Shown here: positions 345 to 60,401 of the stretch, one piece after another
Position numbering within the stretch: the stretch's first letter is position 1
Layout: each line of letters begins with the position of its first letter
NCBI RefSeq assembly: GCF_001583435.1
Contig: NZ_CP013251.1
Span: 1,881,617-1,945,616 of the forward strand
Source: Endozoicomonas montiporae CL-33
GTDB taxonomy: Bacteria > Pseudomonadota > Gammaproteobacteria > Pseudomonadales > Endozoicomonadaceae
Direction of reading: 5' to 3'
Length of the DNA: 64,000 nt
Program-made: the position numbers and the translations under genes
The notes under the pieces: generated by a model
Told to the model about the DNA's origin: nothing
The model's database searches: none
Seen by the model: only the letters and a program-made list of their open reading frames with translations

Positions 345-3300
345 TTAATCCACTGTTCCAGATTTGGAGGCAAAGCCTCCCTCAAGCACAAAGCTCCGCA
401 ACAAGTCCGCTGCTTTAATATTCACCTTGAAGGCCGGGATTGCCAGCCCTTCCTGCGCTTCAAAGTAAGCTTTGGCTTTGGATTTGTCGATGGTGGCTTT
501 CAGAGCATCAAACCGACCATAGTCGTTCAGATTCGCCTCGGTGATCTTCGTATTCATCAAAGCCAGTAATTTATTTGCATCAATGCCCAGATGATCAACA
601 ATCGCTTCTATTTCCTGCTGTTTTTCCCTGGACTGATAGTCAGTGAGGTAATCACGGAAGCTGCGAGCCGGGTCAATGTCTGCATCGCCACGCTGAATAT
701 CACGGAGAAATATCTCGGCGATCTTCTGCTCGTCCTGAGACAATGTTGCAAACGACCGTTGCAGTTCAGCCAGCGTTGCCTCCCGTGATGCTTGATCGCC
801 CCCTGCCAGCTCTTTCAAAAACTTCCTGAAACGTCCGTTCATATAATCCGCATCAATCTTGCCGGTGTCGATTTCGGTAATATGGCTGTCGATATCGAAA
901 GGCACCGTTCCGTCATCACCGCCGCCACCGCCTTTGCTCAGCTCTTTGTAACGCTGTAGCAGAGTGTTGTATTGCTCATGGGTAAAGTCGAGGGTGACGG
1001 TTTGCTTCGGGTCGTCAAACGTGTAATCGCTTTTTTCCCAATCGAATCCCTGAATTTTTGCGGCTTCCAGAATGCCCGTAAACTCTTGGAACAGTTTGGC
1101 AAAAGCCGCCCGTTCGCTGCTGTCGTCGGGCAGTTGTTTAAAATCGTCAACACCGGCAGCCGTAAAAATAGCCGCTATTTCGGCAAAACGGCTGTTCAGT
1201 CGTTCAAGGTTGCCGGGCAAACGATCCACAAACAGACCAATGGGTTTATCGCCGGAATACAGTTTGACCGCAGCGTTCACATTGCGGGTCATGGTGTGGG
1301 GTTTGCGGTAGTAGCGAATGGTACCAAAGGGCTTTTCCAATGGATGAAACAGGCGATTGGTGCGGGAAAACGCCTGAATAATATTCTCGTAGGTCAGCAC
1401 CTTGTCCATATACAGCGTGTTGATCCATTTGGAATCAAACCCCGTCAGCATCTGATCCACGACAATCAACAGGTCGAGCTGTTTCTCCGGCTCGTTGGCT
1501 ATGCGGTTATGGGGCTTTTTATGAGCTAGTCGGGCGGCGATGTCTTTCTTGAATTTGCCATGAGTGCCAAGGTCGAAGTTCTGCCCGAAGGTCTGGTTAT
1601 AATCGTCCAGCAGTTCCACCAGCCCGTCGGATTTAAACGCTGTGCCGCCATCGTTGTCGATGGTCGGGTCAAACAGGCAGGCAATTTTTAAATCCGGGCA
1701 GCGGGCTTTCAGCAGCCGGTAATAGGTGATGGCTTCGGGAATGCTGTGGGTGGCAAAAATGGCATGGAACTTATTGCCCTGACTCAGGGTGAGCCAGTTA
1801 TCGGCAATATCCTCAACCACAGCGGTTTGATGCTCTGTCCGGTCGTACTGGCTGTTGGGCAGATGGTCTTCAATCCCTTTCTGGTAAACGCCGGTGTCGT
1901 CCCGATGCCCTGCCATGGGCACATCGTTCATATAACGGTTAAAAACGACTTTTTTCTTCGGATCGGCAAAGGCTTCTTTTACCGTGTTGGCTTTGGCTTT
2001 TTCCAGAGCAACGGCTTCCCGCACATCCCTGTCTTTGTAGGTTCGCACTTCGTAAGGGTCAAACCCCAGCACGTTTTTATCACGAATCCCGTCGGCAATG
2101 CTGTAGCGGTGCAGTTCGCCGCCAAACACATCGGTGGTGGTGTTGCCTTTACGAATATTTTCTTTGTGAATCGGTGTGCCGCTGAAGCCAAATAAAATAG
2201 CGCCCTTAAAGCTCTGTTTAATGTTGATCAGCATATCGCCAAAGGTAGAACGGTGGCATTCGTCGATAATAAACACAATGCGTTTGGCGCGCATGGTGTC
2301 CAGGTCGTGCGCTCTGAGTCCGCCGTCTTCGTCTTTCAGGCGGCTCATTTTCTGGATAGACGTCACAATGAGCGTATCCGCCGGATCGGTGCTTTTCAGT
2401 TTACTGATCAGCACGCCGGTGTCTTCGGTGGCTTGTACGGCGTTCTCGTCGCCTGCAAAGTCACGGTAAGCTTCCAGCGTTTGCGTGCCCAGCTCTATAC
2501 GGTCGAGCAGAAACACCACCTTGTCGGCATCTTTGGAGTTGGCAATGAGCTGGGCGCACTTGAAGCTGGTCATGGTCTTACCGGCACCGGTGGTGTGCCA
2601 GATAAAACCACCCAGTCGATCCGGGTTTTTCCAGTCGGTTTTGGCGACCTTGTCGGAAACCGCGTGGGCAGCGAAATACTGATAACTGCGCATGACTTTC
2701 AGCACACCGTCGGACTCGTCCGCCACGGTATAAAAACCAATCAGCTGATGCGCCATAGGGATGGAGAGCAAACCGGAAGTAAACGACTTCCAGTCGTTAA
2801 TGGGTTCATTGTTAAAGTCCGCCCAGTGAAAGGCGTAATCTTTATTAAACTGCCCGTCGGGGCCGGGGTTGGCAAAAAACAGTGCTTCGTCGGGTTCCAT
2901 GGCGACAAAAATCTGCACCAGAGAGAACAGCCCGGTAAAAATCCCTTCGCGACTGTACTTTTCAATCTGATGATACGCCTGACTGACCGGCACTCCGCTT
3001 TTCTTCAGTTCCAGATGAATCACCGGCATACCGTTAATCAACAGCAGCACATCACCCCGCCGGTCGTTCAACAGTTTAGAGCCTCGTTCAAAACGGGGTT
3101 GTTGAACAATCTGATAGCGGCTCTGTCCGGCGGCAATCTCGTGACGGTCGTAAATCTTCAAGCTGACTTCCTTGCCAAAGTGCAGGGTGTCGGCGGGGTT
3201 GTCCCGTTTGACGCTGACGGTTTTGCCGTTAATAAACCCGTTCAGCTTCAGGGGCGTGCGCAGGTCGGTAAGCTGCTCCATAATCTGCTGCATTTCGCCT

Positions 3301-3482
3301 GTGGTGAGCGGGACTTGATTGAGCTGGTCAATGCCTTTGTTGTTCTCCAGCAAAATGTTCGCCCAGTTATCCAGCAAGTCCTGTTCGGTGGGGTGTCTGA
3401 TAATCTCAGATTCCCAGCCCCGTTGGGTCAGCTCGTGGATAACGGCATTTTCAAAATCGGTTTCACGGGTAAAGGTGGTCAC
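345..3482 (-). CDS. hsdR: Type I restriction endonuclease subunit R (HsdR)
   Basis: Motor and nuclease subunit of a type I restriction-modification complex; it translocates DNA using ATP and cleaves unmodified DNA. The 1045-residue length is normal. The N-terminal nuclease domain has the PD-(D/E)xK elements, including ELKK near residue 157. The helicase part has Walker A (HTTGAGKT) near residue 297, a DECH box near 406, an SGTP motif, and late helicase motifs around MLTGFDS and QAFSRTNR. The C-terminal third is helical and probably docks on the methylase. It follows hsdS by 35 bases and is the third gene of the operon. All catalytic motifs are present, so it appears intact. Confidence 0.96.
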   Translation of the reverse strand: MTTFTRETDFENAVIHELTQRGWESEIIRHPTEQDLLDNWANILLENNKGIDQLNQVPLTTGEMQQIMEQLTDLRTPLKLNGFINGKTVSVKRDNPADTLHFGKEVSLKIYDRHEIAAGQSRYQIVQQPRFERGSKLLNDRRGDVLLLINGMPVIHLELKKSGVPVSQAYHQIEKYSREGIFTGLFSLVQIFVAMEPDEALFFANPGPDGQFNKDYAFHWADFNNEPINDWKSFTSGLLSIPMAHQLIGFYTVADESDGVLKVMRSYQYFAAHAVSDKVAKTDWKNPDRLGGFIWHTTGAGKTMTSFKCAQLIANSKDADKVVFLLDRIELGTQTLEAYRDFAGDENAVQATEDTGVLISKLKSTDPADTLIVTSIQKMSRLKDEDGGLRAHDLDTMRAKRIVFIIDECHRSTFGDMLINIKQSFKGAILFGFSGTPIHKENIRKGNTTTDVFGGELHRYSIADGIRDKNVLGFDPYEVRTYKDRDVREAVALEKAKANTVKEAFADPKKKVVFNRYMNDVPMAGHRDDTGVYQKGIEDHLPNSQYDRTEHQTAVVEDIADNWLTLSQGNKFHAIFATHSIPEAITYYRLLKARCPDLKIACLFDPTIDNDGGTAFKSDGLVELLDDYNQTFGQNFDLGTHGKFKKDIAARLAHKKPHNRIANEPEKQLDLLIVVDQMLTGFDSKWINTLYMDKVLTYENIIQAFSRTNRLFHPLEKPFGTIRYYRKPHTMTRNVNAAVKLYSGDKPIGLFVDRLPGNLERLNSRFAEIAAIFTAAGVDDFKQLPDDSSERAAFAKLFQEFTGILEAAKIQGFDWEKSDYTFDDPKQTVTLDFTHEQYNTLLQRYKELSKGGGGGDDGTVPFDIDSHITEIDTGKIDADYMNGRFRKFLKELAGGDQASREATLAELQRSFATLSQDEQKIAEIFLRDIQRGDADIDPARSFRDYLTDYQSREKQQEIEAIVDHLGIDANKLLALMNTKITEANLNDYGRFDALKATIDKSKAKAYFEAQEGLAIPAFKVNIKAADLLRSFVLEGGFASKSGTVD

Positions 3483-3517
3483 GGTGGCTATCCCTGTTCG
3501 GTATTATTGATCCGGTT

Positions 3518-4783
3518 TCAGACAAACATCTTCTCCAGACAGGCGGATTTGATCTGTTTGAGTTTTTGCAGTTGGGTGTTGTGTTGGGCGATCAGGTTGT
3601 CGAGTTTGCGGAAGTAGGTGCCGATTTTTTGTTGCTCTTCCTTACAAGGAAAAGTAATCGGCGTATCGTTAGCCTGTTCCACGGTATAATGTGCAATGGT
3701 GCCAATATGAGAAATGTTTTTCAGGTATTTTTGGAAATTTACTGAAGACAAAAAAGTGTATAAGAAACGGCTGTCTAACGCATTTCTAATCTTGAACCAA
3801 AGCAAATCAGCATCTTTGAAGTACAACGGGTTATCGTTATTGACCAGATATGGAATTCCGATAGAACCTCCGCCTGTAACTAAAAGGTCGCCTTTTTGAA
3901 TTCGTCCTACCTTCGCAGAGAGTGCTTCATAAAGATCATGTGATATGAAAGCTTTTGTATTACTAACTCCTTTGTATTCTGAAACAACATCGCTTGATCT
4001 GAAAAAAGGAACGCCAGCCTTCGTCCATTCCTCTTTGTGGACGCGTGCTGCGGATGTGATTGAAATAACTTGTCCAAGAGTATTTTCCTGCCACTCCCCA
4101 GCAAACCCCTTAAACCGAATCTCTGGAGTAGAGGCTCCCTCTTGCGGAAACATCTTCTGCAACATCGCCTGCTTCAGTGTCACCAGCTTGTTTTGTTTGC
4201 GCTGGTGCAGCTCGATCATGCGATCCAGTTTTTTGAAGAAGGTGCCGATTTGGGTTTGTTCTTTTGTAGACGGTATGGCAACTTTTACTTCGGCTATATC
4301 GCTTTGGCCTATAGTTGTCATTGTTGTTGTTTTCCCACCAAGAATAAACTGACGGCGTGAGTTAACAGTCTTGAGAGCATAAGATAAAAAGATAGGAACA
4401 GCAGATTTTCTACAGGGCTGCATTCTAATCAAGTGACCATCAAATGTTAATTCTTGGTGAGTGCTCAAATTTACATTGGAATATGCGATCCCCTCTTTTA
4501 CTAATGATGATCGAGTGAAAAATATATCGCCAAATTCGACTTTCGATTTTAAAAATTCTTTTCTATCTATATCAATGAGAGACAGTCTATCTATGTCAAT
4601 AGAGCTACCAGAAAACATATCCTTGACATTAATCAGTCGGTATCCACTACCAACTTTATCTGGATCATTGAATACACCATTGGTGAAATCTTTCTCCGTC
4701 AAGTTTTTAAGCTTCTTCTTAATCCATTCACCACTAAACCCTTGAAAACGGACACTGGGTTTTTGGGTATCTTGGTTAGCCAT
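3518..4783 (-). CDS. hsdS: Type I restriction-modification specificity subunit S (HsdS)
   Basis: DNA-recognition subunit that sets the target of both methylation and restriction. It shows the usual two-repeat plan: target-recognition domain 1 (about residues 1-185), a conserved helical spacer (about 185-225, with LKQAMLQKMFPQ), domain 2 (about 225-390), and a second matching helix ending in SACLEKMFV. Each half begins with a similar RFxGFxGEW segment. I chose the ATG at 4783, one base after the hsdM stop (TGA-G-ATG), which fits translational coupling. An in-frame GTG at 4792 would overlap hsdM by eight bases and is a weaker choice. The recognition sequence cannot be read from the protein. Confidence 0.94.
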   Translation of the reverse strand: MANQDTQKPSVRFQGFSGEWIKKKLKNLTEKDFTNGVFNDPDKVGSGYRLINVKDMFSGSSIDIDRLSLIDIDRKEFLKSKVEFGDIFFTRSSLVKEGIAYSNVNLSTHQELTFDGHLIRMQPCRKSAVPIFLSYALKTVNSRRQFILGGKTTTMTTIGQSDIAEVKVAIPSTKEQTQIGTFFKKLDRMIELHQRKQNKLVTLKQAMLQKMFPQEGASTPEIRFKGFAGEWQENTLGQVISITSAARVHKEEWTKAGVPFFRSSDVVSEYKGVSNTKAFISHDLYEALSAKVGRIQKGDLLVTGGGSIGIPYLVNNDNPLYFKDADLLWFKIRNALDSRFLYTFLSSVNFQKYLKNISHIGTIAHYTVEQANDTPITFPCKEEQQKIGTYFRKLDNLIAQHNTQLQKLKQIKSACLEKMFV

Positions 4784-4784
4784 C

Positions 4785-7367
4785 TCAACCACCCACCAAC
4801 AGATTTTTCAGTTCCGCCAACCCTTTTAGGTCGAACTCATTTCCGTCCAACTCATCCAGCATATCCGCCAGTTCCGTTTCCGTCTGTTGAATCTCACGGG
4901 CGTTGTCGGCGTAGGTCACGCCGTACTTTTCCACCAGCGCTTGCAGCTTATCGGTTAAACGGTCAATCTGCTGGCCGGGCAGTTGGTGCAGGGCGTTGTT
5001 CAGGGGCGTAATCCACTTGCGTTCCAGCAGCTCGTTGACCTGTTCGTCGCTTAACCCTTCAATGGTCTTTTTCGTTTGCAGGTGCAGGGCATCGGCGGCT
5101 TTTTTAATGGCGGCCTTGAGGGTTTTTTCCTCGGCAATCCACTGGGCGACCTGAATGATTTTGGCTTCGTAGGTGTCCGGAGCAAACGCGCCTGAGGTTT
5201 TGGCTTCCACGCTCAACAGTTTGGCTTCTTTGGTGACGGCGGCATTGACAAATTTATCGCCGGATTCGTGCACCGCATCGCGCTCTTTATCTTCCTCGCT
5301 CAAGCTTTCCAGCGTTTCTTCAAACAGGGCGCTGATTTCACTCAGGCGATTCTCTTTGGCGCTCAAAGCGTCCAGCGGTGCTTTCAGCAAAGTGGTTTGC
5401 ACCAGCTCAAAGGGCAGTATGCGACCTTTCCAGCCTTCCTGTACTTCGGTGTCTTTGCCCTTTTTCTTTTTGATCACCATGTGAGGATCGACAACCCGTG
5501 AGGCATCAAACCCCTCGGTTTGCAGGATTTCCAGATCAATGGCGATGTGATGCCACTGGTCTGCCAGCAGTTGGTAGGCGTGGTACTGATCCAGCAACGG
5601 CAGTGATTCCATGCGGTCAAAAATGCTGTCACCCATCCGGATTTTCTGTCGGGGAATGTGCAGGCTCATGGCCTTTTCGATCAGTTCGGTTTTCAGGTGA
5701 GCAGGGAAATTGTCAAAGGCATCGGCAAACTGTGCGTTAAATTGCTGCACTTGCGGGTGTTCGACAATGGCTTCGGCAAAGTCGTCTACTGTCGGAGTGA
5801 CATAAAGGGTGCCGTCGTCGGTAAACAGTGCGCTGCGTAAGTCGGGGAATGCCTGCCAGTAGTCGCTCAGTGCGTCCAGCTCATGGTTGGGGATGCCGCC
5901 AAACATGGAGGCGTAGAGATCCCAGCTTTCAGCGGGTTCCGAGGAATCCACGTAACGGGGAATATTCAGGTTGTAGCCGTTTTCCCGAATGGTGTCTTTG
6001 CTGACGACACGGCTGTAGTTGGGCACACTCTGGCGACCGATCACGGTGTCGCAGATTTTGCGGATATCGCAGGCTCGCAGTTTGTTGTTTTTGCCTTCTT
6101 TTACAAACCCTTTGGACGCGTCCACAATCAGCACGTCGTTGTTTTTGCGTTTTTGCTTGAGCACCAGAATGGTGGTTGGGATGCCGGTGCCAAAGAAGAT
6201 ATTGGCGGGCAGACCGATAATGGTGTCCAGATGGTCGTTTTCGATCAGGTTTTTACGAATTTCACCTTCTTCACCGCCTCGAAAGAGCACGCCGTGAGGC
6301 AAGATAATCGCCATAATGCCATTGGGCTTCAGGTGATAAAGGTCGTGGAGCAGAAAGGCGTAATCGGCCTTGGATTTGGGCGCAAGGCCAAAGCGGGCGT
6401 AGCGGGGGTCGCTGTCTTTGTGTTCCGGGTCCCACTTTTGCGAATAAGGGGGATTGGAAACAACGGCATCGAGATAGAGTGGGTTGTAGGAGTTGACCGG
6501 GTCGTTGTCGTCAAAGAACGGCCAGTCGTCTTCCAGTGTGTCGCCGTTGCGGGTGACAATGTTGGCAGGCAGAATGCCCCGCATAATCAGATTCATGCGG
6601 GTCAGGTTGTAGGTGTTCTCTTTCAGTTCCTGGGCAAAGTATTTAATGGTGCTCTGGTTGCCCATGTGTTTGGCAATGGCCTGACCGATATTCAGCAACA
6701 AAGAGCCGGAGCCGCTGGTGGAGTCGTAGATATCGATCTTCTCTCTGTCCTGAACGTGGTCAGCCACAATTTCAGAGATCAGCACCGAGACTTCGTGGGG
6801 CGTGTAAAATTCCCCGGCCTTTTTACCGGCATTGGCGGCGAACATGCTGATCAGGTACTCGTAGATAAAACCGAGTACGTCGTAACCCTGCCGTCCGTCC
6901 ATGGGAATGTCTTTAATCAGCTGGATCAATTCGCTGATGGCTTTGGTCTGTTTGGCGGCGGTGTCGCCCAGCTTGCTCAGCCCGGTTTCAAGGGTTTTGA
7001 AAATGCCTTCAAACAGGTCTTTGTGCTCTTTGTGAATCAGGCGGCTGAAAGCTGATAATGCGGTACGAACATGTTCAACACCAAAGTCGCTGCCCTGTTC
7101 AATCCATGTTGAAAACAGATGTTGATGGGCAATGAAGTAGCCGAGGTTTCGCTTGATAAAGTCAACGGTTTCAGCATCGTCTTCGGTCAGGGCACGAATA
7201 TCCTCGGGGCTGAAGTCCTGACTGACGGCAAACTGCTCAAGCTTGTCAGACAGGTACTTGTAGAAGATAAAACCAAGAATGTAGTCCTTGTACTCATTGG
7301 CTTCGATTTTCGACCGCATCTGGTTGGCGGATTCCCAGATTTTGGCGGCGAGCTGCTGTTTGTTCAC
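4785..7367 (-). CDS. hsdM: Type I restriction-modification methyltransferase subunit M (HsdM), extended C-terminus
   Basis: Adenine-N6 methyltransferase subunit of the type I system and first gene of the operon. The N-terminal helical domain is followed by the N6-MTase domain, with FYTPHEVSVLI, an AdoMet-binding DSTSGSGSLLL segment and the catalytic NPPY near residue 305. At 860 residues it is much longer than the common 500-550-residue HsdM. The extra C-terminal 300 or so residues are charged and helical, with a run of KKKK near 640 and several probable coiled coils. Such long HsdM proteins exist in other bacteria, so this is a subtype rather than an artefact. The start is GTG at 7367, preceded by AAGGA at suitable spacing. 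Confidence 0.94.
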   Translation of the reverse strand: MNKQQLAAKIWESANQMRSKIEANEYKDYILGFIFYKYLSDKLEQFAVSQDFSPEDIRALTEDDAETVDFIKRNLGYFIAHQHLFSTWIEQGSDFGVEHVRTALSAFSRLIHKEHKDLFEGIFKTLETGLSKLGDTAAKQTKAISELIQLIKDIPMDGRQGYDVLGFIYEYLISMFAANAGKKAGEFYTPHEVSVLISEIVADHVQDREKIDIYDSTSGSGSLLLNIGQAIAKHMGNQSTIKYFAQELKENTYNLTRMNLIMRGILPANIVTRNGDTLEDDWPFFDDNDPVNSYNPLYLDAVVSNPPYSQKWDPEHKDSDPRYARFGLAPKSKADYAFLLHDLYHLKPNGIMAIILPHGVLFRGGEEGEIRKNLIENDHLDTIIGLPANIFFGTGIPTTILVLKQKRKNNDVLIVDASKGFVKEGKNNKLRACDIRKICDTVIGRQSVPNYSRVVSKDTIRENGYNLNIPRYVDSSEPAESWDLYASMFGGIPNHELDALSDYWQAFPDLRSALFTDDGTLYVTPTVDDFAEAIVEHPQVQQFNAQFADAFDNFPAHLKTELIEKAMSLHIPRQKIRMGDSIFDRMESLPLLDQYHAYQLLADQWHHIAIDLEILQTEGFDASRVVDPHMVIKKKKGKDTEVQEGWKGRILPFELVQTTLLKAPLDALSAKENRLSEISALFEETLESLSEEDKERDAVHESGDKFVNAAVTKEAKLLSVEAKTSGAFAPDTYEAKIIQVAQWIAEEKTLKAAIKKAADALHLQTKKTIEGLSDEQVNELLERKWITPLNNALHQLPGQQIDRLTDKLQALVEKYGVTYADNAREIQQTETELADMLDELDGNEFDLKGLAELKNLLVGG

Positions 7368-9772: not shown

Positions 9773-9902
9773 TCAGAACTCTCTGGGTGGTTCGCCTTTG
9801 TATTCGGTTACAGTGATTTTGTCGGTTTGCTCGCTGGCGCCATCCACAATGTCCAGAATAAATTCCCAAGGTTCACTTTGGAGATTAGGTAGTGGGCCAG
9901 AA
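9773..9902 (-). pseudogene. 3' fragment of pRiA4b ORF-3-like gene, severed by IS1
   Basis: Reading the minus strand upward from the TGA at 9773-9775 gives an open frame encoding a tail ending ITVTEYKGEPPREF, with WEFILDIVDG before it. WEFxxxI is a typical C-terminal element of the pRiA4b ORF-3 (MM3350) domain. The frame stops being meaningful at the edge of the IS1 element. Joined across the element (one copy of the 9-base target removed), it continues exactly in frame from the 5' part at 10713-11845. So this is the lost 3' end of that gene, left without a start. It ends 20 bases beyond the helicase stop on the other strand. Confidence 0.88.
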
Positions 9903-9905
9903 CTG

Positions 9906-10410
9906 TTATATCGCGTGAATATTGACCCCAAACTCAACTTTATTAATCAATAATCCAATAACAATATCGTGCATCTTTTCGAGCTTTGAAAAACAAATTG
10001 TCTTTCTGGCCAACCGTTTAATCCAAGTCCGAAAATTAAGGTTTTTACGCTCTATCTTCTGAGTGTTTGCTTTACCAATAATATGCATGTTTTCATCAAG
10101 GTGTCGCTCATAGGCTCCCCAATCATCGGTGTAAAATTTATTAATACCAAATGGCTTCAGAAGTGTTTTGAGTTCTTTAAAAACTTCATCTTTCCGTTTT
10201 CCGAAAACATAAGCAAGCACGGTATTTGTAGCGTGATCAACAGCATACCAAAGCCAGCGTTGGTTCGATTTATCATGAACATACGACCACTGCTCATCTA
10301 GCTCAGCCTCTTGGCAGACAAGCCCTACATGAATAATTGCATCTGACTTGAGATCAATAGTTTGAATATTTGGGTTGACCTTTACCAGACCGCTTTCTTT
10401 TTTTTTAGAG
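9906..10410 (-). CDS. insB: IS1 transposase, DDE catalytic part (InsB frame)
   Basis: The catalytic half of the IS1 transposase, read in the -1 frame relative to insA. Translation from the A9 run (T9 on the plus strand, 10398-10406) gives continuous sequence: DEQWSYVHDKSNQRWLWYAVD, then FYTDDWGAYE, then KIERKNLNFRTW, which match the IS1 DDE core. No convincing independent start lies before the A run; the first later ATG (10220) would remove the first catalytic aspartate. Production as an InsAB fusion by -1 slippage at the A run, as known for IS1, is therefore expected. The stop (TAA, 9908-9906) lies almost at the element end. Confidence 0.85.
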
Positions 10411-10663
10411 TCTTTATTACTGTTGTCTTGCTTATTCCGAGTACTTTACTTGTATCCCTGATTCCGCTGCCATTTATTGCCATATCGATGATTTTTTCTT
10501 TAACGCCAGGCTCACAGGCCTTGTAGCGATATTCAAGCATGAAGGTTTTGATTTCACATTTGTCATTACAGCAATAGTATCGTGGAACATCATGAGTGCT
10601 GTATCCGAAAGGCCGAACTTGGTTACTGCCACATGTTGTACAGAGGACTTGCGTAAGGCACAT
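10382..10663 (-). CDS. insA: IS1 protein InsA (zinc finger/HTH)
   Basis: This 93-residue protein matches InsA in layout: an N-terminal zinc-binding segment (CTTCGSNQV, then CCNDKC) and a C-terminal helix-turn-helix region with EKIIDMAINGSGIRDTSKVL, which is the conserved InsA core. InsA alone represses and competes with transposase; fused to InsB by frameshifting it supplies DNA binding. The frame ends shortly after the A9 slippage run, as in other IS1 elements. The start ATG is 50 bases inside the element edge. Confidence 0.87.
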   Translation of the reverse strand: MCLTQVLCTTCGSNQVRPFGYSTHDVPRYYCCNDKCEIKTFMLEYRYKACEPGVKEKIIDMAINGSGIRDTSKVLGISKTTVIKTLKKKKAVW

Positions 10664-10712
10664 TTTTAAACCGCATTTTTCAAAGTTGCCGAATGTCGTA
10701 TTTTAGCAGACA

Positions 10713-11845
10713 GGGCTAGAATCACAGAACTGTGCCACTACCTGGAGATTATACAGAAGTCGGAGCTGTTCTCCTGGCAATATCTGAGCGTCTTTTAAGC
10801 TGACGGTATCGGCGCAATCAGTGAATTCTGATTTTAATTGAGGGTCTGCTACTTCGTAGTTGTCGCCATAACAGTCTTCATATAAAAAGCAGTAAAGGAA
10901 CTGGTTGCTAAAGGAAAATGCTCCCAGAATCGCCATAGCCAGCTGATCCAGCGTGGCATTGGTCGGTACGATGAGTGTTCGTTGACATTTATAGGCATAC
11001 ATGGATGCTTTGATGATGTAGCTTTCATGGTGTGGCACAGCTGGTGGGTGCAGCATCTGATTGACGTCATCACGCCATTGTCGAACCACCTGAAGCATGC
11101 CGTCATCTTCGTACAGTATGTCTTCACAGCCAGAGGGTAGCATTAACCCCTGAACATCGATTGATTTCTCGAACGCATTCAACAGGCTGACGCCCAGAGG
11201 GGTAAATTGCAGATGTGCGATCTGAGTCGTGGACAGCCATTGGACGTCAGCCAGACCAAATAGTTTCAGCAGTGCGATATTGTAAGTGCCAAAGCTGGTC
11301 GGGAGTGCTTCAAGGCAGATGGATGAAGCGGGCTCTTCATTAAAAGCGGATTGCCTGAGAAAATTCACACCGGTGCATCCTAAAGGACGATGATCCCGAC
11401 CGTGGAGTTCCTGACCAATAATTTCTGAACTGGCTCTGGTGAGCCATGCGTCCAGCAGACTGAAGTATTGTTCTGTAGGTGTGAGCTTTTGCCACTGTTC
11501 CAGCAGACTCTGGTTGATAATCAGTTGAAACTTGTTGTTTCCAGCTATGAAAATACGCCCAAGCCCTGAAGCCCGGACCAGTAAGTAAAGCCCTAAAATG
11601 GACGGGTAGTGAATCGTCAGAGGTCGATCAAGTTCAGGGCGACCCGGAACGGTCAGTTCTTCATTAAGGACGGAAGTCCATTTTTGAGTTGGCTGCCGTT
11701 TCCCTTTGCTCAGGGGAACTGGTTTTTCAATAACCCGATTCAGAAAGGTATTGAAGTCTTTCACAACGGAGCCCGGCTTGTCGCTTGAAAACTGTTGGTT
11801 TTTGATTGTTTTCAGAGCTTCTGGTGGGAGTTTAATGAGAGTCAT
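10713..11845 (-). pseudogene. pRiA4b ORF-3-like domain protein, 3' end lost to IS1
   Basis: The 5' portion of a gene whose restored product would be 417 residues. The N-terminal 270 residues are not recognised; they contain a segment around HYPSILGLYLLVRASGLGR and may be helical. The C-terminal part resembles the pRiA4b ORF-3 (MM3350) fold: a strand before LIVPTNATLDQLAMAILGAF, then YGDNYEV, then a basin around LLYNL, completed by WEFILDI beyond the insertion. As it stands translation stops at a TAA inside the IS (10703), giving 380 residues that lack the last 40 or so native ones. It starts one base after the SNF2 helicase stop, so the two are translationally coupled and probably work together. 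Whether the shortened product keeps activity is unknown. Confidence 0.82.
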
Positions 11846-11846
11846 C

Positions 11847-14800
11847 TTATTGCGCCTCTGCAGCTTTTAGAGGTTCAAACAGAACATTCAAATCTTCTGC
11901 GGTAATGGACTGCTTTTTCTTGCCATTGGTTTCTCCGTATAACGAGGCAGCAATGTTTTTCTTTTTCTCTTTAAGCTCCTGGATTTTTTCTTCCACGGTG
12001 CCTTCTGTGACCAGCTTGTAAACAAATACGGGCTTATCCTGACCAATCCGGTGTGAACGGTCACTGGCCTGATCTTCTACCGCAGGGTTCCACCAGGGGT
12101 CGTAATGGATCACTGTGTCGGCAGCGGTCAGGTTCAGGCCGGTGCCACCGGCTTTCAGGCTGATGAGGAACACGGGCACGTCACCTTCCTGAAAAGCTTT
12201 GATGGGGCGGTGACGGTCACGGGTTTGTCCGGTGAGTTTCACCCAGTCTATGTTGACTGCGTTTAGTCGCTCTTCTATCAGAGAGAGCATGCTGGTGAAC
12301 TGGGAAAAGATCAGGATTTTCCGGCCTTCTTCAACAATCGGCTGGACCAGACTCATTAACAGGTCGAGCTTGGCCGATTCCGGCACTTCTTTGGCTTGTT
12401 CGAGTTTAACCAGTGAGGGGTCGCAACAGGCCTGTCGCATTTTCAGCAGGGCATCGAGAATGACAATCTGGGAGCGAGCCAGACCTTTCTTTTCGATTTC
12501 ATCTTTAACGCGGGATTCCATGCTGGCACGAATGGTTTCATACAGGTCTCTTTGTTTACCATTCAACTCAGTGGTGCGGACGATTTCCGTTTTGGGTGGG
12601 AGTTCTTTGGCAACAAGGTCTTTGCTTCGGCGCAACATAAACGGTGCTACCCGCTTTTGCAGTTTCTTTGATTGTTGCTTGTTGTTGTGTTTTTCAATGG
12701 GGGTTCGGTAGAAGCGGGTAAACTGGTCTCTGGCTCCAAGGAAACCGGGCATCAGGAAGTCGTATAAAGACCACAATTCACCCAGATGGTTTTCCATAGG
12801 TGTGCCGGTGATGCAGAGCTTGTGGGCTGCATTCAGGGAGCGAACGGCCTGAGCGCTTTTTGCGTTAGGGTTTTTAACAGCCTGGGCTTCATCGAGTGCC
12901 AGCAGGTGAAAATTGGTTTTGCTGAGCGTTTCAAAATCACGCTGAATAACACCGTAGCTGGTGAGTACCAGATCCGCGTTGTTTATCTGGCTGCTGTCTC
13001 GTTGTGAGCCATGATGTATGTGAACGTTCAGCTCCGGTGTGAAACGCTGTGCTTCATTTTTCCAGTTATGCAGCAGGCTGGTCGGGCAAACCACCAGACT
13101 GGGCGGTAGTTTTTTGCCCAGTCGTTGTTTTTCCACTTGCAAATGAGACAAGGTTTGAAGGGTTTTACCCAGTCCCATGTCGTCTGCCAATATACCGTTC
13201 AGGCCGTATTCACGGAGGAATTGCAACCAGGATAAACCGTCTTGTTGGTAAGGGCGCAGCTCCGCTTGCAGTGCTTTGGGGGGAGCGACTTTTTTCATTC
13301 GCTTGAAACTTTTCAGTTTGCGAGCGAGTTCCAGCAGTTTATCGCCACCTGCCCAGGGTAAGCCCAGCTTGTCGTGTAATTCCTGCCAGATATCGGCGTG
13401 ATGATTTTGCAGACGGTATTCGCCCTGTGGCCGGTCACCATAAAGTTCCAGCAACGTACCGGCAATCAGTTGTAAGCGTTCTGCCGGAAGGTTAATAAAA
13501 CGTCCTCCGGGCAGTGCGACAGGCACCTGTTCGTCTTTCGGCATTTTACGAAGTTCGTCAGGCGTTGGGAGCTGGTGGATTTGTCGGGCGAGCAGGGGCA
13601 ACAGATCAATGGGCTTTCCGTCAATGTTGATACCCAGTTTTAGAGTGAACCAGTCCATCTGGGATTCATCCAGCTCGGCGTACCAGTCATCATCAGAAAT
13701 GGGTTCAAACTGGAATGGAAAGCTCTCTTCGGTTTCTACTATCCAGCCATCGTCTTCCAGTTCGGGCACGACATGGGTGATGAATTGTAGCCATTCTTGC
13801 TGGTAGCGGTCTTTGGCGCACTCAATGATCAGGTCGCCTTCTCTGAGCCCGTCTGGGTTCGGTGTGTCTGCGGGTACCAGATAGGGCATGAGTGCCTGAG
13901 TGTGCTGTATTTCCTGCTGTATTTGTCTTGGAATAATGACTTCATCGTTATCAGGCAGCGTGATGGAGTCCGATGGGTTCTCAAAAGCGATACGGTGTCC
14001 GTCATAACTGAATAACAAATTGGCGCGGGCGATTTCACCAGATGGTTTGATGGGGTGGCTGCTTAACATCAGAACGGGCTGCGGTTCGATAAATTGCGTC
14101 TGGATTTTTTTCGGCAGATGTATGGGCGTGGGTTGTGACCCTTTAGCACTCTTTTCAGAGCCCTTTTTGGAACTCTTTTTGGAACGATTCTTAGAGGTCG
14201 GTTGACTGCCAAAAAGACTGGAAATCGCACTTTGAGTTTCTTCTATGCCGTCGTTATCCAACGGCGGTGCTTGTAATAAGGTTTGTAATATTTCGCCGTC
14301 GGGCAAGTGTGTCAGTTCGCCGCACTCGGCAACCTCTTTATTGACTTTGAGGTAATAAGGCGGCGTTGTGGGTATGAGATTCAGCCGGTCGTTCTGTTGA
14401 CTGAACAATGCAGGCTGCTGCAGACCTTGCTCGTCAACCAGCCAGCGCAGCTCTCCTGCTGTTGGGTTGCTTTGCTCAATGATCTGTTTTGAATGCTCAT
14501 CAAAGGTACAACGTCCCGTAGCAATGATTTTCGTCAGAAGCTCAACACCGTGAGTTTCGCGAATTCTTATGCCATTGCCGTAGGGTGTCATATCGTTGTG
14601 AATGTAGGCCATTTTTATGATGTGCTGGTCTGCATCGTCTACACTGGCAGGCCAGTTGTAGGTTTGAATGGCAGATTGTGCGCCGTAAAATGAGTTTAAT
14701 TTGCCCAAGCCGCCTTTTTTGAGGTAGCGAGACAGGTGCAGGGTGACGGATGTGTTGCCCATTCTGTCAAAGCGAAGCACGTAGACTAGACAGCCTGGTT

Positions 14801-15452
14801 GTTTTTTTACGCTGGTGGCTATTTTACTATTCTGGCTTTGGCTGGTGACTCGTTTAAGGTTTTTCAGCCACTGAGTTCTCTGTTTTTTTAGTTTTGCTTT
14901 TTCCGGATCAGACAGGCCAGTCATTGTCTGACTATTTTGCGAAGAATCTTGCCAACCTAAATCTTCAAGGGATATACCCAGAGTTTCCATTGAACTGATT
15001 ATTTCTTTGAGTGTTTCAGCCTTTGGGGAGTCATCAAGGGTTAAGGCTTTCTTTAGATTGTCTAGCTGGTTCGATAGTTCATCTTCAAATTCCGAGAAAC
15101 TTTCATAGGTGCCTTCAATGACGTCATCGTCATCTATACCAATCAGTGCATTGAGGGTATCTGTACCGTATTGTTTTTCAGCACTGAGTAAAACGGCACA
15201 AACGTGCTTGCAGTTATACCCAACAGGGCAGGAGCAATGGCCCTCTATAAGCTCTTCTTCCGGTGCATCTTGCCAGAAGGTGATATTTACGTTGTATCGG
15301 TGCGTGCCTGAGCCCAGAACCGCCCCTTTTAAAGAATGTTTTTTCTCATCAAGGCTTACCATTAAAACATGGCGGGACTGAAAGTATTTTTTCCCTCTGC
15401 CATAGGTTTTAGCGCCGAAGATGCGGTTGAAGTCGATGTTAAGTTCAGACAT
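11847..15452 (-). CDS. SWIM zinc-finger SNF2-family helicase
   Basis: A 1201-residue SWI2/SNF2 ATPase. An N-terminal SWIM zinc finger has C73-x-C75 and C81-x-H83. The middle 600 residues are variable, with low-complexity KKSSKKGSEKSAKG near 430. The motor is C-terminal: Walker A in ADDMGLGKT near residue 758, a DEAQ box (LDEAQAVKNP) near 853, CITGTPMENHLGELWSL, and the C-terminal lobe with AGGTGLNLT and DRSHRIGQ near 1100-1140. It is RapA/HepA-like in motor but with a SWIM module, a class known from bacteria and often of unknown role. The stop is one base before the start of the pRiA4b ORF-3-like gene. A role in DNA or RNA-polymerase remodelling, or defence, is inference. Confidence 0.9.
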   Translation of the reverse strand: MSELNIDFNRIFGAKTYGRGKKYFQSRHVLMVSLDEKKHSLKGAVLGSGTHRYNVNITFWQDAPEEELIEGHCSCPVGYNCKHVCAVLLSAEKQYGTDTLNALIGIDDDDVIEGTYESFSEFEDELSNQLDNLKKALTLDDSPKAETLKEIISSMETLGISLEDLGWQDSSQNSQTMTGLSDPEKAKLKKQRTQWLKNLKRVTSQSQNSKIATSVKKQPGCLVYVLRFDRMGNTSVTLHLSRYLKKGGLGKLNSFYGAQSAIQTYNWPASVDDADQHIIKMAYIHNDMTPYGNGIRIRETHGVELLTKIIATGRCTFDEHSKQIIEQSNPTAGELRWLVDEQGLQQPALFSQQNDRLNLIPTTPPYYLKVNKEVAECGELTHLPDGEILQTLLQAPPLDNDGIEETQSAISSLFGSQPTSKNRSKKSSKKGSEKSAKGSQPTPIHLPKKIQTQFIEPQPVLMLSSHPIKPSGEIARANLLFSYDGHRIAFENPSDSITLPDNDEVIIPRQIQQEIQHTQALMPYLVPADTPNPDGLREGDLIIECAKDRYQQEWLQFITHVVPELEDDGWIVETEESFPFQFEPISDDDWYAELDESQMDWFTLKLGINIDGKPIDLLPLLARQIHQLPTPDELRKMPKDEQVPVALPGGRFINLPAERLQLIAGTLLELYGDRPQGEYRLQNHHADIWQELHDKLGLPWAGGDKLLELARKLKSFKRMKKVAPPKALQAELRPYQQDGLSWLQFLREYGLNGILADDMGLGKTLQTLSHLQVEKQRLGKKLPPSLVVCPTSLLHNWKNEAQRFTPELNVHIHHGSQRDSSQINNADLVLTSYGVIQRDFETLSKTNFHLLALDEAQAVKNPNAKSAQAVRSLNAAHKLCITGTPMENHLGELWSLYDFLMPGFLGARDQFTRFYRTPIEKHNNKQQSKKLQKRVAPFMLRRSKDLVAKELPPKTEIVRTTELNGKQRDLYETIRASMESRVKDEIEKKGLARSQIVILDALLKMRQACCDPSLVKLEQAKEVPESAKLDLLMSLVQPIVEEGRKILIFSQFTSMLSLIEERLNAVNIDWVKLTGQTRDRHRPIKAFQEGDVPVFLISLKAGGTGLNLTAADTVIHYDPWWNPAVEDQASDRSHRIGQDKPVFVYKLVTEGTVEEKIQELKEKKKNIAASLYGETNGKKKQSITAEDLNVLFEPLKAAEAQ

Positions 15453-15564
15453 GCATTGCTTACATAGAATTTGAAAGAACTTATTTTAGCGACATTGTGT
15501 TTGTGTCGCTATCATTGTGTAGCAGGAACTACTTCTGCTGAATCAAATGGGCAGTAGGAAATTG

Positions 15565-15590
15565 CTACCGGTAAGACGGGTTACCGGTAG
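15565..15590. repeat. Perfect 10-bp inverted repeat between divergent genes
   Basis: ctaccggtaa, a six-base spacer (gacggg), then ttaccggtag. It lies 113 bases upstream of the SNF2 gene start and 153 bases upstream of the ATPase gene. There is no T-run on either side, so an operator for a dimeric regulator is more likely than a terminator. Each arm itself contains the palindrome taccggta. No regulator gene is adjacent. Confidence 0.5.
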
Positions 15591-15742
15591 TGGTTTCAGA
15601 TAGAAGAATGAGTGATTTCAAAGTTTGTGATGGGTAGCCTCGGTCTATTTGTGAAGATGTTTATCTGAATCGATTGCTCAAAAATGGTATAAAAACAAGG
15701 AAAACTTACTTTTACTTGGCAAAGCTACCAGAGACCAGATGA

Positions 15743-16852
15743 ATGCTGAGATCGTTAACGTTAAACAATGTGGGGCCAGCGGAAGGGAATCAGCCTGTTC
15801 ATTTCGCCCCACGGCTGAACTTGATTACTGGCGATAACGGCCTGGGTAAAAGCTTCCTGCTGGATATTGCCTGGTGGGCATTGACTCGTAAGTGGCCGCA
15901 GGAAGTAAACACTGCTTTAACTTCAGGCTATATGGCTCGGCCAGTCGATCCCCGGTTGCAAGCAGATATTAATATTGAGTTAAAAGGTAAAACGCGGTCT
16001 GTCAAAATCGAGGTGCCCTTTCGGCGGGAAGAGCAGAAATGGATTTTTCCTCGCTCCAAGCCTGTAATGGCAGGTCTGGTGCTTTATGCCTTGCCTAACG
16101 GTGGGTTTGCCGTCTGGGACCCTGCCCGGAATTATTCGGAGAGTCAAAGCGGGGCTATCCATGAGCGGCGGCCTGCGTATGTGTTTACGCCACAAGAGGT
16201 TTGGGATGGCTTGTGGGGAGATGATGGCAAGCCTTTATGTAATGGTTTAATCCATGATTGGGCGGGTTGGCAGAAAGAGAATGGCGATACCTTTAAACTG
16301 CTGCAGAATATTCTTGATTCATTGTCACCCTCCTCTCAGGAAAAAATCAGTGCAGGACGGCTGACGCGAGTTAGTCTGGATGACTCCAGAGATATTCCGA
16401 CCTTGAACATGTCTTATGGTCAGGAAGTTCCGGTGATTCATGCATCTTCTGGTATGAAACGAATTATTGCTTTGGCTTATTTATTGGTCTGGGCGTGGAA
16501 GGAGCATCTGAGTGCTTGTGCTTTTTTGGGGCAAGAACCTACCAGACAAATTGTGTTTTTAATTGATGAAATTGAAGCGCATTTGCACCCTAAGTGGCAG
16601 CGCAGCATCATTGTTTCACTATTACAAGCCGTTAATCAATTAACCAGCAAACGTGTGAATGTTCAGTTAATTACGGCGACTCATTCTCCCTTGGTGATGG
16701 CATCGGTAGAACCTCAGTTTGATGTAAAGAAAGATGGCTGGCTGGATTTAGATTTTGAGCCTGAATCAAATGGCAAAGGTCGAGCGGTTATAACCCAGAG
16801 AGAATTTGTTCGACAGGGTAGTGCCAACAGTTTGGTAGCATTGTTTGAATAG
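15743..16852 (+). CDS. AAA/ABC-type ATPase (SMC-like, OLD-related class)
   Basis: A 369-residue ATPase of the AAA_15/AAA_21 type. The N-terminus LRSLTLNNVGPA is the usual first strand; Walker A is GDNGLGKS at residues 30-37. A signature-like SSGMKRIIALAYLL lies near residue 235, Walker B (IVFLIDEIEAHLHP) near 270 and the switch histidine (ATHSP) near 310. No TOPRIM or other nuclease domain follows, so it would need a partner. The SEC-C protein gene begins 52 bases downstream on the same strand. Related ATPases act in anti-phage systems, but this particular pairing is not one I recognise. The ATG at 15739 is in another frame; 15743 is the only workable start. Confidence 0.87.
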   Translation: MLRSLTLNNVGPAEGNQPVHFAPRLNLITGDNGLGKSFLLDIAWWALTRKWPQEVNTALTSGYMARPVDPRLQADINIELKGKTRSVKIEVPFRREEQKWIFPRSKPVMAGLVLYALPNGGFAVWDPARNYSESQSGAIHERRPAYVFTPQEVWDGLWGDDGKPLCNGLIHDWAGWQKENGDTFKLLQNILDSLSPSSQEKISAGRLTRVSLDDSRDIPTLNMSYGQEVPVIHASSGMKRIIALAYLLVWAWKEHLSACAFLGQEPTRQIVFLIDEIEAHLHPKWQRSIIVSLLQAVNQLTSKRVNVQLITATHSPLVMASVEPQFDVKKDGWLDLDFEPESNGKGRAVITQREFVRQGSANSLVALFE

Positions 16853-16904
16853 ACATTAGGCATCACCAGTACTTTATTGTTTTGAAGCAAAGAGGAGTAA
16901 GCGC

Positions 16905-17777
16905 ATGTTATTAGAACCAAAGAGTGAAAACGAACAGCTAATATGCTCGTTCCCAACAGGTGCTTCAGGAAAGCCGCAAAGTTTTGCTGTGCAGATGAGC
17001 GGTTGTGAAAACCCTTTATGTCACTGTAAACAGATCCGGCTGGAGATGACTTCGCTCGGTCAGGGGCCTATTGATGATGTTGCCATCATGCTTGATCTGT
17101 CTGATCGAGCAGTGATACGGGAAGAGAGTGTGACGGATGGAGTTTATAATGCGTTTATAAATGATATGCGCTCAAGTGACTGGGAGCTTCTGAATCAACA
17201 ACATTATGTGTTTAAAGCCCAATTGACGCTGAACACTGACCTGGATGCCCTTGAACCTTCTTTTCCAATCTACGAAGTAGAAGAAAATTCGATACTGATT
17301 GGCTACGAAGAGATTCTGCCATTTCAACCTTTTATTCAGTTTGAAATGGATGATGTCCGTTATTTTGTCATGGATTTGTATTGTGTGAATCGCAGTTGTC
17401 ATTGCTCGAAGGTACACCTTTCGATTATTACGGATGACAATAAGTGGTGCGAAGAGGATGATTTTATGCTGGCCGTTGATTTAAAAACGGGCAAATATGA
17501 AACGGAGTCGCAGAAAGGTCGAGCTGAGCGTTTAAAAACCTCAATGGTTATGCAGAAAATTCTACAAGTCATCGACTTGAAAGAGCTCCGTCAACGCTAT
17601 AGACGCATGAGAAAATGGTATAAGTCTCATTTTGACCGCATTCAGATTCAAGGACAATTAATTGAGTCCATGGGTGCTCAGCCCTCAAAGCTTGCTCTTG
17701 CGGCAGAACCTACCGGTCGTAATGATCCATGTCCTTGTGGGAGTGGGAAGAAGTATAAAAAGTGTTGCTTAAATTAA
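16905..17777 (+). CDS. SEC-C motif zinc protein with two CxHC-type clusters
   Basis: A 290-residue protein ending in a SEC-C zinc motif (NDPCPCGSGKKYKKCC), as found at the end of SecA and many small proteins. Two further cysteine clusters of the same form occur: C34-x4-C39-H-C41 (CENPLCHC) and CVNRSCHC near residue 155. Each is followed by a similar beta segment (KQIRLEM and SKVHLSI), so the body appears to be an internal duplication of a roughly 120-residue zinc-bearing unit. A basic helical stretch (RQRYRRMRKWYKSHF) precedes the SEC-C tail. It is co-oriented with the ATPase upstream. The function is unknown; a nucleic-acid or protein adaptor is plausible. A MITE-like repeat begins within four bases of its stop. 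Confidence 0.8.
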   Translation: MLLEPKSENEQLICSFPTGASGKPQSFAVQMSGCENPLCHCKQIRLEMTSLGQGPIDDVAIMLDLSDRAVIREESVTDGVYNAFINDMRSSDWELLNQQHYVFKAQLTLNTDLDALEPSFPIYEVEENSILIGYEEILPFQPFIQFEMDDVRYFVMDLYCVNRSCHCSKVHLSIITDDNKWCEEDDFMLAVDLKTGKYETESQKGRAERLKTSMVMQKILQVIDLKELRQRYRRMRKWYKSHFDRIQIQGQLIESMGAQPSKLALAAEPTGRNDPCPCGSGKKYKKCCLN

Positions 17778-17960: not shown

Positions 17961-19001
17961 ATGACGAATGTGCGAGAAGGCTTGGTAAGTCGCCTCAGAC
18001 AAGAGAAGCAGAGAGTGCTGGTTGATCTCAATGAAGTGAAAGCCGGGCGCGAGAACGCAATTGCATTAAATGATGAGATTAAGACGCCTGATGTCTTGAT
18101 AGGTGATGGATACGATCCGCTTCATGCTGTCTATCTGTATGCACAGAATTTTTTGTCTGTGCTGGTTGAGCAGGCAACTGAATTTCCCGAATTGCAGCAG
18201 TGGGTGGATTTGTACGTTGATCTTGAAGAAAACTACATGCCTGTTGGGCCTCCAATGAGCCCTCTTAGCGGGAGTTATTTTTTCTGTTGGTCAAGCTTCG
18301 ATCTCCCTTTCGGTGAGCACCGTGAAACCATCACGCAGTGCATGATAGAAATGGCTCGGGAGCTGGGTGTTCAGCCTGATCTTATCGAGACTCTCGAAGT
18401 GATGCAGAAGTCCAGAATGGGGTTTTATATTCATGAAGGCTCAGAAGGCGACTTCATCAGACTGAGGGAGTTAAAGACAAACCGCCAGCTCCTGTGCCAC
18501 AGCAGTTCGGGTTATCTGGGGCGTGCTGGTGAAATATGGTACATACGGTTAATGCCACCTTTGGTGGATGGCTATGATTACCATATTGTGTTTACAACAC
18601 CTTATGTCATACGCAATGTTTCCGAGTCTGGGCTTCTGGATCTTGTTGACAAGATGATTCCGAAAATGACCAGACGAGGATATCCTGCAGAGTATGATGC
18701 ATTTATGAAGTGGGGTCCCATGCTCAAGTACTGGAACGAGTATCTTATGATGGGGTATAGCAATTTTGAGCATGATGTCGTTTATCTGACGGGGTACCCT
18801 GCAGCTGACCCCAAAGCAGAATATAACAGTGTGGAGGATATGAATTCCCGGCAATACCAGAGTAGGGATTCGATGGACTGGTTAAGCGGAGCAATGTCTG
18901 GAACATCTAAACCGGCAACCAAGAAAGTTGTTCAGCTTGCTGATAAAAAGAAAAAGCGAAAACAAGCGAAGCAGGCAAGAAAGAGAAGTAAAAGCAAATG
19001 A
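17961..19001 (+). CDS. Unknown protein with lysine/arginine-rich tail
   Basis: A 346-residue soluble protein with no motif I recognise. The body is mixed alpha/beta with many aromatic residues (for example GSYFFCWSSFDLPFGEH). The last 25 residues are almost entirely basic (KKKKRKQAKQARKRSKSK), which suggests binding to nucleic acid or to the ribosome. It follows the ATPase and SEC-C genes on the same strand, 183 bases after the latter because a 94-bp MITE-like element has been inserted between them. Before that insertion the gap would have been about 80 bases, so a three-gene unit is possible. A terminator-like hairpin lies 87 bases downstream. Confidence 0.75.
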   Translation: MTNVREGLVSRLRQEKQRVLVDLNEVKAGRENAIALNDEIKTPDVLIGDGYDPLHAVYLYAQNFLSVLVEQATEFPELQQWVDLYVDLEENYMPVGPPMSPLSGSYFFCWSSFDLPFGEHRETITQCMIEMARELGVQPDLIETLEVMQKSRMGFYIHEGSEGDFIRLRELKTNRQLLCHSSSGYLGRAGEIWYIRLMPPLVDGYDYHIVFTTPYVIRNVSESGLLDLVDKMIPKMTRRGYPAEYDAFMKWGPMLKYWNEYLMMGYSNFEHDVVYLTGYPAADPKAEYNSVEDMNSRQYQSRDSMDWLSGAMSGTSKPATKKVVQLADKKKKRKQAKQARKRSKSK

Positions 19002-58787: not shown

Positions 58788-60401
58788 GGGTGAAAGTCTC
58801 ATATTGACTGGTACTATAATTCCAAGTCACCTTTCTGCATGGGGAATGGGATGACATTGTCCATACCCACTTCCGTGACCTTGGCGCAGTAGGTCACCGC
58901 CAGTAACTTCCAGCCATTGTCGAACATGCCACTCTGAATTAATGACCTTGCTGTCAAAATACCTTGGCCTCCGGGATGCCGCCACCTCATTCCAGAACAC
59001 TTCATTCGCTGCGTTACCAAGGTTTTACAAGTAGCCTCAATAACCCCTGAGCCTATTGGCAAGTTGTGCGACAAGTGTTCAGCATAGTTCATGCGGGTTC
59101 GATTACTTCTGAAGTACTCCAGCTCTGTTTTCAACTTCGATCGACGAGGGTGTCGTTTATGCTGGTAAGCCAGAGCTTTGATGACTTTTTCAACACCTTC
59201 GGGCTCCTCTTTGAGGATGTGGCGATAGGTGATGAACTTTTCTCTGGATTTGTTGCTGTTTTCACCATAGGACAGGTCAAACGCTTTCTTCAGGTGCTCT
59301 GCGGCATGATAGAAGTCTACAACCTCGTGACCTTCAGGGAGTTCATTGGCAAGGTAGGTCCAGTTGTCTTTTGCCCCATCAGCGACTTTAACAAGCGTCA
59401 GATCTGGCCTCTGTCGAAGAGCTTCGCTCAGGAGTGCGGAGAGTGATTGTTTCAAAGTCACTTTCTTGCTTTCAGGCATTCGACTCATCCTGACCGTTGA
59501 GAGGCGTTCACCCTGTGCATCGTAAAACGACAATGTTCCACAACTGGCCTCCTGACAGCCAGCAGGGCCACGGGTTCGCTTGCCATCGACTCTATTCTGT
59601 TCCCGCTTTTCCTGACGTTTACCATCTTTCATCGGCAACATGACGCCATCAAGAGAAGCGGCCGCAGTCACAGCTTCTTCAGGAACCTTGACGCTTTCCC
59701 AGAGAAAGTCTTCAAAGGCTTCCCTATTGGGTTCCCACTGCGCATTGAACTTTTTGGGTAGTCTGGCCAGAGAGCTTTCCGAGGGCGTCATGTTCCCTAT
59801 CAGATCAAGTAGGCTTTTAGCCTCTCCGGGAGGCATTTGCGCAACCATCCAGACAGCTTGTTTAGCTGCTTTTGGTGTCCAATACCCCTCTACAATACCT
59901 GCCTGTAGCTCCAAAGGGATGATAGAGTGATCCTTACCGTTACGATAGAGCGTACGCAAAACCCGGACAGGGCCGACAGCGGATTGATAAGTTTCTGAAG
60001 ATCGCAACACCCGATGGTAACAGACACCGCTTACCTCAATCGCAGGAACGTCAATATCAAGCCCGGTCAGGTCTTCTGCCAGAACGCTTTGCTCTGCTTC
60101 GATAAAGAGTTTATGGATCTCACCTTCATAGTCTTCAAAGTGCTTGATTGGGCTGTGTTCCTGACGAAGAACGGCCAGTTTTTGCTCAAGCTGTTGGATA
60201 GCATGACAAGAAAAATTGGCGGCTTCAGCTAGTGGCTGACATACTTGCATCGGGGCGGCCTTTCACTGTTGCGGTATCTTTTACAGTAACCATCATAGCG
60301 GTGTTTGGCCGTTCCTATGTAAGTCCAGAGAAAATTTGTAGCTGCTGTATAAACCACGGACGGCAAGCCCAGAAAAAATGGTCAGTATGAGACTTTCACC
60401 C
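58788..60401 (-). mobile_element. ISKra4-family insertion sequence with 8-bp target duplication
   Basis: A complete 1614-bp element. Inverted ends read inward as gggtgaaagtctcatattga (left) and gggtgaaagtctcatactga (right), 19 of 20 matching. The target atatgaat is duplicated exactly at 58780-58787 and 60402-60409. One transposase gene runs on the minus strand. The duplicated target includes the ATG of the gene at 60404, so the insertion separates that gene's coding part from its original upstream region while rebuilding the start codon. Confidence 0.93.
58814..60250 (-). CDS. ISKra4-family transposase
   Basis: A 478-residue transposase. The sequence has the ISKra4 features: an N-terminal helical part, a catalytic domain with ASLDGVMLPMKDG (first Asp) near 198, VKVADGAKDNWTYLANELP (second Asp) near 295, DFYHAAEHLKKAF, and a late segment LPIGSGVIEATCKTLVTQRMK with the catalytic Glu. 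The open frame is intact and within the usual size, so the element may still be active. It starts about 150 bases inside the right end. Confidence 0.92.
   Translation of the reverse strand: MQVCQPLAEAANFSCHAIQQLEQKLAVLRQEHSPIKHFEDYEGEIHKLFIEAEQSVLAEDLTGLDIDVPAIEVSGVCYHRVLRSSETYQSAVGPVRVLRTLYRNGKDHSIIPLELQAGIVEGYWTPKAAKQAVWMVAQMPPGEAKSLLDLIGNMTPSESSLARLPKKFNAQWEPNREAFEDFLWESVKVPEEAVTAAASLDGVMLPMKDGKRQEKREQNRVDGKRTRGPAGCQEASCGTLSFYDAQGERLSTVRMSRMPESKKVTLKQSLSALLSEALRQRPDLTLVKVADGAKDNWTYLANELPEGHEVVDFYHAAEHLKKAFDLSYGENSNKSREKFITYRHILKEEPEGVEKVIKALAYQHKRHPRRSKLKTELEYFRSNRTRMNYAEHLSHNLPIGSGVIEATCKTLVTQRMKCSGMRWRHPGGQGILTARSLIQSGMFDNGWKLLAVTYCAKVTEVGMDNVIPFPMQKGDLEL

Follow-up and report, generated by a model that had tools for sequence, protein, structure and literature searches.

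In a window of 64,000 nucleotides of the genome of the coral-associated bacterium Endozoicomonas montiporae CL-33 (the whole stretch analyzed; positions are counted from its first base unless stated otherwise), a pRiA4b ORF-3-like gene on the minus strand lies in two pieces, separated by an IS1-family element. The element occupies 9888-10742 on the minus strand and is 855 bp long, and its transposase genes are co-directional with the host gene. The 5′ piece of the gene is at 10743-11845 and the 3′ piece is at 9773-9878. In the window, neither an Rfam match at the gathering score nor a tRNA was found.

The IS1-family element and the interrupted gene

Two minus-strand ORFs were identified in the element. 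The insB-like ORF (9906-10220) encodes a DDE transposase that matches PF03400 (DDE_Tnp_IS1; E 8.5e-33, 113.9 bits), and the insA-like ORF (10382-10663) matches PF12759 (InsA C-terminal domain; E 1.5e-16, 60.2 bits). These ORFs sit in different frames, and in IS1 the two ORFs are joined by programmed frameshifting. When the sequence was read, a run of nine A residues was found at 10398-10406, inside the insA-like ORF, and this run is likely to be the putative frameshift site. The inverted ends of the element are GGTAGTGG; the first eight end positions all match, and across the terminal repeats 17 of 24 positions agree. Each end abuts one copy of the 9-bp target-site duplication TGGAGATTA, the left copy at 9879-9887 and the right copy at 10743-10751, and these two copies are identical, without a single mismatch. 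A transposase with an InsA-type partner, terminal inverted repeats, and a short target duplication place the element in the IS1 family.

Both pieces of the host gene are free of stops and frameshifts. The 5′ piece, which includes one target copy, comprises 367 whole codons plus two bases of a split codon, and the 3′ piece completes that codon with one base and continues with 34 codons (SEPWEFILDI...PPREF), followed by the stop. Before the insertion, the gene therefore consisted of 367 + 1 + 34 = 402 codons. Together, the 855 bp of the IS and the 9 bp of the duplication add 864 bp, or 288 codons, so the frame is preserved across the insert. The present ORF has 380 codons and ends within the element: the IS provides the last base of the codon split by the insertion, followed by the last 12 residues, VVAQFCDSSPVC, and their stop (10703-10742, minus strand, inside the 855-bp repeated unit). 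The present ORF matched PF07929 near its C-terminus, at profile positions 13-94 of 173, with an E value of 7.6e-06 and 26.2 bits, which is below the cut-off of 26.6. We read this sub-cut-off ORF as a broken member of the family. The intact homologue P0001 of E. euniceicola scored 46.3 bits against the same cut-off (residues 284-400, profile positions 13-130). The 3′ tail piece alone had no Pfam match at E values up to 0.1.

Copies of the element in the genome

The E. montiporae CL-33 genome was searched with positions 9890-10740 as the query, and 40 of the 62 candidates were scored. At least 40 matches spanned all 851 query bases, each with 100% identity (rounded). The left-end pattern of the element occurs 45 times in this genome and the right-end pattern 46 times; one right end, at genome position 1965190, lacks a partner among the left-end matches. 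We took the flanks of all 45 copies that have a left end. Of these, 43 are full-length copies of 855 bp, and the remaining two are interrupted, at genome positions 1256802-1258914 (ends 2113 bp apart) and 2126847-2129323 (ends 2477 bp apart). These two copies may have been entered by other DNA, for instance by a second mobile element.

The full-length copies are highly uniform. When the window copy was counted, 35 of the 43 were identical, six differed by one base, one by two bases, and one by nine bases. The target duplication was 8 bp long in 34 of the 43 copies, 9 bp in two (including the window copy), and 7 bp in one, and in the other six no target duplication of at least 4 bp was found. 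From these lengths, the usual cut made by this IS1 subgroup would seem to be staggered by 8 bp. We also searched nine other genomes of the same genus. Relatives of the IS were found in five of them, the best listed showing 76% identity across most of its length, and no near-identical copy was present among the matches listed. Among the ten genomes compared, the near-identical set is thus peculiar to E. montiporae CL-33.

The comparison of copies bears on a preliminary description of this locus, in which the original frame was said to be exactly rebuilt. The severed gene itself was correctly recognized, whereas the edges, the duplication, the codon count, and the IS-coded tail all had to be revised. 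The element had been delimited at 9903-10712, but the repeat extends beyond these positions at both sides, because the 851-base query matches over its full length in other copies, and the repeated unit in 43 of the 45 copies with a left end corresponds to 9888-10742. The two 9-mers that had been taken for imperfect target copies belong to the IS interior and occur at the same positions in all 43 full copies, so no mutation after the insertion is needed to explain their difference. The rebuilt gene had been given 417 codons; the 15 in excess of the actual 402 are made up of 36 bp of the IS ends and the second copy of the duplication, which together stay open. Similarly, the present ORF had been assigned only three or four of its 12 IS-coded residues.

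Intact homologues, predicted structure, and neighborhood

The database was searched with the protein of locus L010, which is identical to the E. euniceicola protein P0001. The search returned 22 entries, one of which (P0008) is the window gene itself. In 18 of the 22 entries, the aligned positions hold the W and the F of the WEF tail motif; the four entries without them were P0008, P0010 (270 aa), P0022 (305 aa), and the divergent P0020. The WEFILDI tail noted in the preliminary description is real, and the finding that would have refuted that description, homologues ending at the IS boundary without the tail, is not borne out by these entries.

Nine close homologues of 401-408 residues (P0001-P0007, P0009, and P0011, six of them from named Endozoicomonas, including P0006 of E. 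ascidiicola) were aligned to the two pieces separately. In all nine, the pieces matched in the correct order and the 5′ piece aligned through its final residue. The tail piece scored 55-130 against these homologues, and none of the 200 shuffles run against each homologue scored above 51; for every homologue, the real score exceeded those of its own shuffles. The junction was gapless in five of the nine homologues (residue n, then n+1), and one to three homologue residues remained unaligned in the other four, the alignment being local. The reconstructed gene is one residue longer than the 401-aa homologues, precisely at the split codon of the junction, which we read as a probable natural difference in loop length.

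Intact relatives also back the reading that the two pieces were once a single in-frame gene, and one of these relatives has the same gene neighborhood. At E. ascidiicola locus L049, an uninterrupted 401-aa gene is convergent with recD2, the recD2 gene is 91% identical to that of the window, and the neighborhood beside recD2 is the same in both. Two genomes of the same genus, G009 and G007, likewise hold intact 401-aa genes; the protein from G009 is P0001 and is therefore no independent witness. Among the best 80 of 117 relatives, the match to P0001 extended to at least residue 373 in all 80 loci and to at least residue 395 in 72. Within the species, no strain with a continuous gene was found. 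In the database, the 380-aa protein is assigned to two contigs, and the second would fit another assembly sharing the insertion, although this is only a hint. Compared with L010 and L011, the 5′ piece had a dN/dS of approximately 0.15-0.16 and the 3′ piece one of approximately 0.13-0.15, values that are rough because dS was above 1.5; within this imprecision, they fit purifying selection on the gene until lately. No relative of the gene was found in viral contigs, and the relatives on plasmids (10 records, 25.6-33.2% identical) are all cyanobacterial by name.

We modeled homologue P0001 with AlphaFold2 from 17 aligned homologues (mean pLDDT 84.4). In this model, the insertion point, 367/368, falls in the turn of the C-terminal beta hairpin between strands 360-367 and 369-381, and strands 369-381 and 389-394 are lost by the truncation. 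As these are the last two strands of a small C-terminal beta domain, their loss is likely to leave the protein inactive. In the Foldseek search, E values below 0.001 were obtained only for the two chains of an archaeal protein of unknown function, MM3350 (PDB 2i1s; E 8.1e-06 and 1.1e-05). A sequence search of solved structures returned a single match, a 23-residue chain with an E value of 0.31.

The genes around the locus were also analyzed. The stop of a gene for a 1201-aa SNF2/SWIM protein and the ATG of the broken gene are one base apart. We considered an operon of these two genes as a conserved unit and rejected it: there was no SNF2 match at E 1e-3 in 83 loci around relatives of the gene (80 with flanks reaching 6 kb at most, many of them cut short by contig ends, and three with flanks of 1.5 kb), and in G009 and G007 close relatives of the SNF2 protein (83%) are encoded far away from the pRiA4b-like genes of those genomes. 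The SNF2/SWIM helicase-like gene forms a block of approximately 6 kb (11847-17777), together with genes for a PtuA-like ATPase and a SEC-C protein, between two divergent genes that are separated by 6115 bp in the window and by 123 bp in E. ascidiicola L049; the far-side gene (17961-19001) was paired with its E. ascidiicola counterpart by eye. It looks as though this block was either gained here or lost in L049. The PtuA-like ATPase (15743-16852) has 369 aa and aligns with longer relatives, of 433 aa in G007 and 434 aa in G002, only as far as about residue 363; for roughly the last 70 residues of these relatives, the window yielded no convincing counterpart. This gene also seems to be shortened, with no IS recognized at the break. 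Adjoining recD2, a minus-strand type I restriction-modification set (345-7367) contains HsdR-, HsdS-, and HsdM-like ORFs, of which HsdM was confirmed by Pfam and PADLOC and the other two were named by appearance. A 478-aa minus-strand ORF at 58814-60250 is transposase-like in appearance, and no Pfam match above the cut-off was found for it.

Interpretation of the insertion and comparison with known systems

We propose that an IS1-family element, amplified recently, inserted into a conserved pRiA4b ORF-3-like gene of 402 codons, in the part that encodes the C-terminal region, and that nine target bases were duplicated on insertion. Translation from the old start would now read 12 codons into the IS and then stop, so that the protein would lose its final 34 residues and most likely be inactive. 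We place the probability of this reading at about 0.96. As most copies of the IS are identical and the flanks show no decay, we infer that the insertion was recent. Three points count against the scenario: the extra residue at the junction, the failure to find an empty site in the same species, and the length of the duplication, which is 9 bp here and 8 bp in 34 of the 37 copies that have one.

A gene that naturally ends near the IS, followed by an unrelated ORF or a separate gene, would be compatible with the failure of the tail piece to match any Pfam profile and with the lack of the tail in P0010 and P0022. However, this tail matches all nine close homologues above every shuffle, starting 0-3 residues past the end of the first piece, its W and F recur in most of the database entries, and the match to P0001 runs past the insertion point in each of the 80 loci; we therefore regard a natural end as next to impossible. 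Scarcely more credible is an assembly artefact, in which one of the ~45 near-identical IS copies was misplaced at this site. PMC4781883 does state that its short-read assemblies were strongly affected by repeats exceeding the read length, but the same source describes sequencing with PacBio reads and consistency with an AflII map, and it puts the two gaps that remain near 1.6 and 2.8 Mbp, whereas the window is at 1.88-1.95 Mb. Moreover, a random mis-join would not yield the two halves of one gene with a perfect duplication at their flanks.

Other readings accept the insertion and question its effect. The truncated protein might still work with its 12 IS-coded residues, or precise excision of the IS might switch the site. 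The 5′ piece retains 367 of the 402 codons open, including the whole part before the PF07929 domain, and neither piece has acquired a stop or a frameshift. The lost strands, however, belong to the very domain that names the family, and the score falls from 46.3 bits in intact P0001 to 26.2 bits in the window ORF; precise excision of IS1 is rare, which counts against switching in this way. We give these possibilities a small chance, and a somewhat smaller one to the idea that the 380-residue protein is still made with an altered role, in which case the IS1 would have given the protein a new C-terminal end instead of inactivating the gene. The preferred reading, inactivation by a truncating insertion, matters mainly for annotation. 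The gene should be listed as a pseudogene disrupted by an IS, with the corrected edges, and more generally, the boundaries of an IS should be set by comparing its copies, not by the nearest imperfect repeat.

None of the papers listed in a literature search on pRiA4b ORF-3 has this name in its title or abstract, and the relevant passages of PMC5240137 contain general remarks on transposases and nothing on the broken gene. Compared with the PF07929 family, the protein has ~270 additional residues before the domain, and the window copy is without the domain end; the best structural match of the intact homologue is the MM3350 structure. The element differs from IS1 of E. coli, in which the target duplication is usually 9 bp, in that it is 855 bp long and its usual duplication is 8 bp. 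It agrees with the IS1-like elements of E. montiporae CL-33 in its InsA/InsB-type ORFs, the A-run in insA, the GGTAGTGG-type ends, and duplications of 7-9 bp. According to the parts of PMC4781883 concerned with insertion sequences, this genome has 46 IS1-like elements, termed the most active, and 56 of its genes are inactivated by insertions; our 45 left ends and 46 right ends fit that number of elements. The locus is a case of ordinary insertional inactivation, a phenomenon already described for this genome in those parts of PMC4781883, and of the same kind as IS-mediated pseudogene formation in host-associated bacteria. It adds one further example of the IS-driven gene decay known for E. montiporae.
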